Assembly: GCF_002214605.1 (NCBI RefSeq)
Contig: NZ_CP015193.1
Span: 1,530,978-1,594,977 of the forward strand
Source: Thermococcus chitonophagus
GTDB lineage: Archaea > Methanobacteriota_B > Thermococci > Thermococcales > Thermococcaceae
Length of the DNA stretch: 64,000 bases
Direction: 5' to 3'
The position numbers and the translations under genes are program-made. Every line of letters begins with the position of its first letter. The stretch's first letter is position 1. The notes under the pieces were generated by a model. That model had not been told where the DNA came from. It was given only the letters and a program-made list of their open reading frames with translations, and made no database searches. Below are positions 18,198 through 20,769 of this stretch, piece after piece.

Positions 18198-18242
18198 GCT
18201 TAAATTTTTATATTTTTGAGCGAACATTTCCCTGGGATAGCC

Positions 18243-18600
18243 ATGTTCTACAACAGGGAAAAGGAACTATCCACACTCAGAACTTTCGTTGAGAGCGAGC
18301 CAAATACAATTTTCTTCATTTATGGCCCGATAAACTCGGGCAAAACGACACTACTAATGGAATTTTCTAAGAGACTTCCTGAGGATTTCGTTCCATTCTA
18401 TATAACCCTCAGGTGGCCCAGTTCCAAAAGCTCTGCTGAGGGAGGTAATTGGAAACCACGAGAACGCTTTCTCCTTATATAATTGCGACGTTCAGGAAGA
18501 CGGGAAAATTAAAAATCGTAAATTCTAAATCTTAGATGAGCCCCAGAAAGCTGAAAGTCTAAAAATAAATGGCCCACACCTTATTAATAAATGACCCCTA
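18243..18600 (+). pseudogene. archaeal AAA ATPase, truncated and frameshifted
   Basis: ATG 18243 opens a product beginning FYNREKELSTLR and carrying a normal Walker A (FFIYGPINSGKTTLLMEF), as in the Thermococcales ATPase family with Walker B near residue 140. The frame ends at 18482. In another frame, from 18529, the sequence reads ILDEPQKAESLKINGPHLINK, which resembles the Walker B region of the same family (DELQKLKxxxING). So the gene suffered a frameshift or deletion and lost its C-terminal half. Confidence 0.7.
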
Positions 18601-18629
18601 AATAGCCTTCCAGTTTTACATTTTTCTTT

Positions 18630-19030
18630 TGAAAGCTTCGCCCTTTAGGGCGGGGATGTAGTAATTGAGAGTTTTGGTTTTTTTCAGGCCAAACCCTTTT
18701 GTACCTCGATAGCGTAATAGGGCCCGAAAAGGAGTCACTCCAAGAGAGTCTTTAGAGCGGGTTTCGCGTGTCCTCCCGCCATCGGGAGGAAGACTCCAAT
18801 AGGCGTCCTCTCAAAATTGCTCCCTTGCGGGTGGTCTTCCAGTGATAACTGCCTGCTTGGGCGGGTAGGGGTAACTTTAGGCCGGCCTGTGAGCTGAGCT
18901 GAAACTCGCGACGGGAGTAGGTGATGGGCCCGCAAACCAATGAACCCCCTGAAGGGTGGGGTAATGACGCCCAAGAGGAACCCCCACCCTTCAGGACGAG
19001 GAAGAGGCCAGTCAGCTCGAATCCTGTAAT
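18630..19030 (+). mobile_element. GC-rich hairpin tract, probable remnant of an IS200/IS605-type element
   Basis: No intact gene is seen between 18600 and 19118. At 18633 GCTTCGCCCTTTAGGGCGGGGATG resembles the 3' end of TnpB elements (split here: GCTTCGCCCTTTAGG, then GCGGGGATGTAG). At 18948-18961 and 18982-18995 lies a perfect 14-bp stem (CCTGAAGGGTGGGG / its complement) with a 20-base loop. The tract is far more GC-rich than its surroundings, as expected for structured RNA in a hyperthermophile. It could instead be a functional ncRNA. No transposase frame survives. Confidence 0.35.
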
Positions 19031-19118: not shown

Positions 19119-19385
19119 CTATCGTTTTCTCCCCTGTATAAAGGTTATCAGTAGCACTCCTGCAGAAACTGTACTTAGAATTCTGAGGAAGAGTTCAACA
19201 ATAGATGAAGAGGAAGTGAGCTTCCAATATATTAAGAGCTCGTACAAGTCTCTAGCAGACATGAAAAGTGGTGTAATAACTGCCCATGTACGGTAGTCTC
19301 TAAATCCTCTACGCTTTATGGAAGTGATCGTAAAATACAAGAAGAGGGGAAATAGAGCAGAGGACAAAATGTCTCCCAAATTCAC
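19119..19385 (-). CDS. small membrane protein, second gene of the halocin-like locus
   Basis: 88 residues from GTG 19385, which stands behind AAGGTGAGGAACC and begins 11 bases after the stop of the Cys-rich precursor gene, so the two are co-transcribed. It has three likely membrane segments (ILSSALFPLFLYFTITSI; TWAVITPLFM region; ILSTVSAGVLLITFI) and a basic tail GRKR. No family recognised. Its place right after a bacteriocin-like gene fits a role in immunity or export, which is inference only. Confidence 0.6.
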   Translation of the reverse strand: MNLGDILSSALFPLFLYFTITSIKRRGFRDYRTWAVITPLFMSARDLYELLIYWKLTSSSSIVELFLRILSTVSAGVLLITFIQGRKR

Positions 19386-19396
19386 GGTTCCTCACC

Positions 19397-20398
19397 TTAT
19401 ACAGGTTCAACAGATTCAGATGTACATATGTTGGTCCAATAACTAAAGCATTTTGCACAGTCCCCATGGATACCACCAATCGTAGCTAAGCATGCACTGC
19501 AAGCTTCAATGTTTAGTTTTTTAGCTAAAAGACTTTCGGCACACTTAATGCAGTTTATAACCCCAGATACTATTGATGGCGCACATGACGTAGCTGCACA
19601 CCACCAATCTATATCTTGCGGATATGAAATGCATATCATAATTAAGTCCATTACTATGGTTGCCCCAGTTGCTTTATGCTGGTTGTATTCTGGTAGGTTG
19701 GTCTTTACCAACTGTGAGAGGCGCCTGAGCTCGTAAGCGCTCCTAGTCCAGAGCCACTTGGTCTCGTCGTTCCTATGCAGTTTTAGGAGGACTTCATTAA
19801 GAGTCCAGTAGTACTCTGAGAGAGTCAAGTTCTCGGCTGTGAGGACTATGTCACCGACGGGGAGGGCTTTGTCCTCCCTCGGTGCAATGTTTATTCCAGT
19901 AATAAAAGCCTTGTATTCTCCAGTCTCGGGGTCTGTGAAAATCCTAGTGATGAGGGTAAAGTTATACTGACTCCTCTCCGTGCGATAAACGAGGACATAC
20001 ATCATGTAGTTAAATGTCTCGTTGTGGAAGTTGATTTCCAGGAACAACAGCTGCTTGCCCTTTCCAGTCACGTTGTAAAGCGTGACTACGGAAGTATTTA
20101 ACTTTACAATCAAGCTACATGAGCTCGCATTACAACTGTTGCAACAGGAGCAGGAGGAGTTAGTTAAGTTTGCAAAGTTAATGGTCTTGTCTACCCAGGT
20201 CACGTTCATCTGGAGCCTATACTTCTCATCGTGCCATGCAACGACAGCCCTGCGGAAGGTTATGCTGGAGTTACCTGGATTCATTGCTGCCACCTGTGGT
20301 GTAAAAACTACTCGAGTACTTAACACTAAAAATGCCACTAAAAGGCTAAGTATGATTCTCTTCCACCTTATTCTCGTTCCCCTACTAAATAGTTTCAA
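19397..20398 (-). CDS. secreted Cys-rich protein with halocin-C8-like C-terminal domain
   Basis: 333 residues. Residues 1-38 form a Sec signal peptide (RIRWKRIILSLLVAFLVLS, cleavage near AA-M). The middle (40-250) is beta-rich and holds a dense Cys cluster SSCSCCNSCNASSC at 81-94. The last 80 residues hold ten Cys (256, 267, 272, 283, 286, 300, 303, 314, 317, 325) in a hydrophobic, Gly/Ala-containing context that starts near QDIDWWC. Halocin C8 of haloarchaea is a 76-residue peptide with ten Cys, begins DID, and is also cut from the C-terminus of a larger precursor whose N-part is the immunity protein. Start is TTG 20398; TTATATAA at 20417-20424 suits a nearly leaderless transcript. Family link is by pattern only. 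Confidence 0.6.
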   Translation of the reverse strand: MKLFSRGTRIRWKRIILSLLVAFLVLSTRVVFTPQVAAMNPGNSSITFRRAVVAWHDEKYRLQMNVTWVDKTINFANLTNSSCSCCNSCNASSCSLIVKLNTSVVTLYNVTGKGKQLLFLEINFHNETFNYMMYVLVYRTERSQYNFTLITRIFTDPETGEYKAFITGINIAPREDKALPVGDIVLTAENLTLSEYYWTLNEVLLKLHRNDETKWLWTRSAYELRRLSQLVKTNLPEYNQHKATGATIVMDLIMICISYPQDIDWWCAATSCAPSIVSGVINCIKCAESLLAKKLNIEACSACLATIGGIHGDCAKCFSYWTNICTSESVEPV

Positions 20399-20416: not shown

Positions 20417-20424
20417 TTATATAA
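20417..20424 (-). promoter_or_regulatory. TATA box of the halocin-like gene
   Basis: TTATATAA lies about 22-25 bases before the TTG start on the minus strand, which implies a transcript starting at or next to the initiation codon. Confidence 0.5.
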
Positions 20425-20769
20425 GCATTTTCCTCCATAAGTTGTATATTGGACAATGCTTTGCTTTTCTAAAAATACTTACATCAAAGCAAAATAGTAG
20501 AGAGCACTACTTAACTCGAAGATAATCCAAATTAGGAAATGGCACATAGAATTCTTTTCGGAATCTTTATAACTCCCTTTAGGCTGGGGGAGAATGTCGG
20601 ACTCGTTTTGCAACTACAAAAGCCTCCCACCATTGGAGGATTGAAAAAAGAAGTTAAGCTCTACCTCAGAAACTTCTGGAGATTCACTTGAAACTTCCTT
20701 TGGATAGGAACCATAGGTTCCAAAAACACCTAAAAGTCCAGCCGGGGAAGGGTAAAATAGGTGAGAAGA
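20425..20769. other. intergenic region before hypC
   Basis: No gene is seen. Two short inverted repeats stand out: CCTCC-CACCATT-GGAGG at about 20625-20641 and GGAACC-ATA-GGTTCC at 20707-20721. The region has a GGTGAGAAGA ribosome binding site for hypC at its end. No tnp or sRNA box motif could be assigned. Confidence 0.5.

Follow-up and report, generated by a model that had tools for sequence, protein, structure and literature searches.

Archaeocins and related toxin–immunity systems

To our knowledge, almost nothing has been learned about the means by which hyperthermophilic archaea fight one another. A 2019 survey of archaeal toxins in mBio (Makarova et al.) reportedly enlarges the halocin C8 family and puts forward many predicted archaeocins; in the literature that we searched, of which that survey was not part, we found no description of an antimicrobial peptide of Thermococcales. 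In Gram-positive bacteria, class II bacteriocins are encoded as gene pairs that join a small peptide to a small membrane immunity protein, and spare immunity genes are also found. Halocin C8, for which killing activity is known, derives from a 283-residue precursor, ProC8, that is exported by the Tat pathway (PMC11509114); in haloarchaea, ProC8 yields both HalI and the 76-residue halocin C8 peptide (PMC11509114, citing Sun 2005).

Here, we analyzed a 64,000-nucleotide stretch of the Thermococcus chitonophagus genome (the window) in which a secreted Cys-rich precursor and a small membrane protein are encoded side by side. We consider this locus a probable member of a polymorphic archaeocin system of Thermococcales with separate cognate immunity genes. 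Somewhat less confidently, we propose that this system has not been described before and that it consists of one exported carrier, about ten unrelated disulfide-rich peptide families with membrane immunity proteins of their own, and carrier-independent exchange at fixed sites beside spare immunity genes; some of the cassette types may already be among those predicted in the 2019 mBio survey.

Such an arrangement would resemble polymorphic toxin systems, in which a constant delivery part is joined to a C-terminal toxic part swapped by recombination, with the cognate immunity gene directly downstream and more immunity genes nearby (PMC3482391). It differs from them in its small Sec-type precursor, in carrying disulfide-rich peptides rather than enzyme domains, and in that a dedicated secretion machinery is not seen here. 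The VARTIG modules, also of Thermococcales, are alike in layout, with a recombining C-terminal region and downstream membrane genes that follow the subfamilies, but VARTIG proteins are large, contain immunoglobulin domains, and have no identified toxin (PMC8416519). The locus shares with class II bacteriocins the peptide/membrane-protein gene pair and the spare immunity genes (for immunity topology, see PMC6957408), whereas the Cys-rich peptide here is attached to a precursor part of ~250 residues and not to a short leader.

The gene pair and its type-A cassette

The two ORFs described in the first-pass annotation, together with the 11-base gap between them, are present on the minus strand. 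These are a carrier-cassette precursor gene at 19397 to 20398 (333 codons from TTG) and an 88-codon gene at 19119 to 19385 with a GTG start and an SD-like GGTGAG at 19391 to 19396. Neither protein matched a profile in Pfam or NCBIfam, and a PDB sequence search with the 333-residue precursor, carrier domain included, was likewise without a match; full-length homologues and the two-gene arrangement reappear in other genomes, which is more than chance. The precursor has a Sec-type-looking N terminus (...VAFLVLS...PQVAA|M), in which a hydrophobic segment and a cleavage-like motif span residues ~10 to 38 (20285–20371, minus strand) and are kept in the relatives in an alignment read by eye, in agreement with the signal peptide assigned earlier. 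This is followed by the carrier (N-) domain, residues ~39 to 250 (19649–20284, minus strand), delimited by conservation in the alignment and ending in LPEYNQxKAxG....D, and by the type-A Cys-rich cassette, residues 251 to 333 (19400–19648, minus strand), a putative mature antimicrobial peptide. In the 88-residue protein, the putative immunity partner of the type-A cassette, two hydrophobic segments are clear and a central one is weaker, which makes for two to three transmembrane helices where three had first been assigned.

The cassette starts near D251, where the likeness among family members ends in the alignment. It had been described as a 70-residue tail with ten Cys from QDIDWWC onward; ten tail Cys are indeed present, but 73 residues and nine Cys lie from residue 261, where that motif begins, and the tenth Cys is Cys256, upstream of it. 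All ten are invariant across four type-A tails of ~83 residues, so Cys positions are stable among these homologues. The DID of the window tail, which had been likened to the DID at the start of halocin C8, is HID or HIS in the other type-A tails and, because it is not conserved, is ruled out as a processing signature. Among 115 genomes of the phylum, five have a type-A tail, and the type-A membrane gene occurs in those five and in G008, where the contig end falls inside a type-A tail. An intact type-A copy is present in G004; in G007 (L089), the type-A carrier is interrupted by stops, and what is left is the cassette with its membrane gene. Modeling with AlphaFold gave a pLDDT of 39.7 for the whole precursor (three sequences) and of 56.9 for the isolated tail, too low for a fold search; these low-confidence models suggest that the carrier is rich in strands and the tail mostly helical.

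Start codon and coding constraint of the window copy

A TATA-box-like element (CTTATATAA; 20417–20425, minus strand) lines up with its counterpart in the upstream regions of most other copies of the family. Comparison of the upstream regions reveals that the relatives mostly have an ATG ~46 nt past this conserved element. The homologous codon in the window (20369–20371) is ATA, which makes present expression of this copy uncertain, and the TTG at 20398 is only ~23 nt beyond the TATA box and probably not downstream of the transcription start; expression of the window copy may be poor. It is possible, although we think it the less likely case, that this one copy is a decaying, nonexpressed remnant retained for its immunity gene, which would be compatible with the archaeocin reading of the family. 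The two start-codon features just described point that way, as do a long carrier branch (0.6) and the broken state of a second copy in the same genome. Against decay, the frame is open across 339 codons, and both carrier and cassette show far less nonsynonymous than synonymous change (pn 0.17 versus ps 0.59 relative to the nearest carrier; pn 0.24 versus ps 0.63 for the tail relative to that of L073); the open frame and the low nonsynonymous change together indicate that the window gene has been under coding constraint. In the second copy (C1:1001072–1001266; L002, and L103 4052–4276), the carrier has lost an internal stretch and contains frameshifts, and behind it come a type-K tail with 12 Cys and an intact-looking membrane gene.

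A conserved carrier with exchangeable cassettes

With the full precursor as query, relatives were found in 9 of the 61 genomes searched, the window's own counted, and a profile of the N-domain detects the family in 29 of 94 Thermococcales genomes. The alignment is strongly conserved through the LPEYNQxKAxG....D motif (~residue 251) and shows nearly no conservation beyond it. Clustering of the tails of 44 copies by BLAST (E 1e-4) resulted in ten clusters, A (the window kind), B, C, D, E, F, G, H, D2, and I; type K, after the broken second copy in the window's genome, is a further tail. Profile–profile comparison with hhalign identifies D2 as a distant D (85%) and gives borderline values for F–G (52%) and C–K (25%), with the remaining pairs unrelated. 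The family combines a single N-terminal part of ~250 residues with about ten mutually unrelated Cys-rich cassettes. Cys counts are even in almost every cassette type, with ten in A, 16 in B, 20 in full-length copies of E, and 12 in K. A scan of a genome-contig collection with the N-domain returned only two Thermococcus MAG loci, missing known copies, and so does not bound the range of the family. A mobile-element origin was rejected, as searches of plasmids and viral contigs gave no match, and a known defense family was rejected on the PADLOC result, which consisted of insignificant matches only.

In the window gene, GC3 falls from 0.58 in the carrier part to 0.29 in the cassette (Fisher p 7e-6), and a drop at the carrier/cassette junction is seen in 45 of 45 copies. 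The carrier tree mixes cassette types, requiring 18 changes where the least possible is 10. The window carrier groups with the type-B carrier L068 from another genus (G030; 100/96), not with the type-A carrier L073; that it nonetheless bears a type-A cassette indicates that cassettes have been exchanged. A single site, with TruB/Cbf5 upstream and a methyltransferase downstream, holds types A, C, D, D2, E, F, H, and I across genomes.

Membrane protein genes are paired with cassette types

Directly after each of the 45 copies is a same-strand gene for a membrane protein, usually at most 90 nt away. These genes fall into 15 families by BLAST, each found with one cassette type only, and a shared membrane family coincides with a shared cassette type in 103 of 103 pairs; in a test that ignores common descent, the maximum among 10,000 label permutations was 35, and none reached 103. 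That the pairing does not come from descent alone is indicated by the mixing in the carrier tree, the eight types at one site, and the fall in GC3 at the junction.

Many loci harbor extra membrane genes of types other than that of the adjacent cassette, for example L068, L090, L082, and L100, and these are apparent spare immunity genes. By type, the membrane genes are I, E, B, B, B, D2, and D in L068 and B, E, B, B, C, D, and F in L090; the window contains no membrane gene of another cassette type. L068, L090, L082, and L065 are islands in which up to seven putative immunity genes of differing types stand together. Among the 42 copies away from contig ends, carriers are broken in 12 and membrane genes are full length in 41, a count that is trivially true for single-member membrane families and that concerns copies located through their tails. 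A weapon lost with its protection kept is what a toxin–immunity pair predicts, although a ligand–receptor pair could show the same pattern.

Peptide signaling, in which the cassette would be a secreted pheromone, the membrane protein its cognate receptor, and the extra genes receptors for the signals of neighbors, accommodates the one-to-one pairing and the extra membrane genes equally well. We nevertheless find it improbable, as the membrane proteins are of many unrelated kinds (62–309 residues) and have no recognizable output domain, and as one cassette type is the halocin-C8 domain, whose killing activity is known (PMC11509114).

Relationship to halocin C8

The window product had been annotated as halocin-C8-like, a label that does not survive comparison with the domain itself. 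In a search with the halocin C8 domain model (TIGR04449, halocin_C8_dom), the window protein has no match at E values up to 10; it matches no Pfam profile either, so that its tail belongs to no known antimicrobial family by these searches, and an order-wide search found no TIGR04449 match in the window's own genome. The type-A and type-D tails have a profile–profile probability of 1.1% (hhalign), and their Cys order is not alignable. These profile and profile–profile tests rule out the window tail as a member of the halocin C8 family, and the DID on which the proposal had drawn is not conserved. The two are alike in that both are secreted as precursors, both have ten Cys in a C-terminal peptide of comparable size, and release of this peptide by proteolysis is expected.

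In contrast to the window gene, sister genes that share its carrier bear a genuine halocin-C8 domain, type D. TIGR04449 matches the tails of L007/L069 (E 1.4e-11) and L066 (1.6e-10), with weaker matches in L071 and L084. The function that we ascribe to type A is deduced from this carrier and from the gene layout common to the halocin-C8-type copies. Three more halocin-C8 precursors are found in Thermococcus-like genomes (L070:9426–10226, L105:4016–4807, and L106:3493–4284). Their tails are clearly type D (hhalign 98%), and their N-domain is unrelated to the carrier (0.3%), so that one kind of cassette occurs on two carriers. This would link the halocin-C8 domain with another, unrelated carrier and also with immunity genes that lie outside the precursor. 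The gene that follows in L105 and L106 is similar, by eye, to the one for the membrane protein next to the type-D copy of L076.

The first-pass annotation had also placed immunity in the N-terminal part of the precursor, as in halocin C8 proper. Under such a layout, modeled on the release of both HalI and halocin C8 from haloarchaeal ProC8 (PMC11509114, citing Sun 2005), the N-domain would be a HalI-like immunity protein and the membrane gene an accessory to export or processing. Our comparisons make this very improbable. The N-domain is constant over all cassettes, whereas the downstream membrane gene changes with them and tracks the cassette exactly; an accessory export factor would be expected to be constant and not cassette-specific. 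The carrier is also unrelated to the other N-domain on the Thermococcus halocin-C8 precursors, and comparison with those precursors lends no support to the N-domain as a HalI relative. Tail diversity and export differ from halocin C8 as well; ProC8 uses the Tat pathway whereas the signal here is Sec-like, and by eye no twin-arginine motif precedes the hydrophobic segment, either in the window protein or in its relatives (RIRWKR.., MNWRK..). Finally, a hypervariable surface or self-recognition protein devoid of toxic activity, for which the recombining C-terminal regions and ensuing membrane genes of the Thermococcales VARTIG modules provide a precedent (PMC8416519), is highly unlikely given cassettes that are small and Cys-rich, one of them a known bacteriocin domain, the lack of any immunoglobulin domain match above the cut-off, and the retention of membrane genes where carriers are lost, which fits immunity.

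Proposed mode of action

In the polymorphic archaeocin system that we favor, the precursor would be exported by Sec via the signal peptide read by eye, and the constant ~210-residue domain may help to export the C-terminal cassette, to deliver it, or to keep it inactive. Cleavage outside the cell, close to the conserved ...(V/I/M)D junction at ~residue 250, would then release a peptide of ~83 residues, which in type A is expected to form five disulfides from the ten invariant Cys. The targets of this peptide would be other archaea, probably closely related ones, and it would probably act on their membrane. As its exact co-inheritance with the cassette suggests, the small membrane protein of the downstream gene would protect the producer, presumably at the level of the membrane. 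We infer killing, cleavage, and immunity alike from sequence comparisons. The earlier functional proposal, in which a hyperthermophile secretes a disulfide-stabilized antimicrobial precursor and makes a partner membrane protein along with it, is well supported by this comparative evidence. If this reading is correct, it adds some ten new peptide families, heat-stable and rich in disulfides, each with a matched immunity gene. Competition and self-recognition among archaea could then be tested with simple spot assays, and the order has genetically tractable species among its members.

Surroundings of the locus

A GC-rich noncoding stretch, possibly a structured RNA, is found at 18621 to 19024 of the window, with a GC content of 0.53 to 0.59 from ~18700 on compared with ~0.39 around it. 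It contains a perfect 14-bp inverted repeat (18948–18961/18982–18995) and two weak, subthreshold matches to HgcC (RF00062; E 0.49 and 0.71). At 18216 to 18482 is a truncated archaeal ATPase_2 gene (PF01637, E 2.8e-15) that covers only profile positions 1 to 60 of 225 and is apparently a remnant adjoining the peptide locus.
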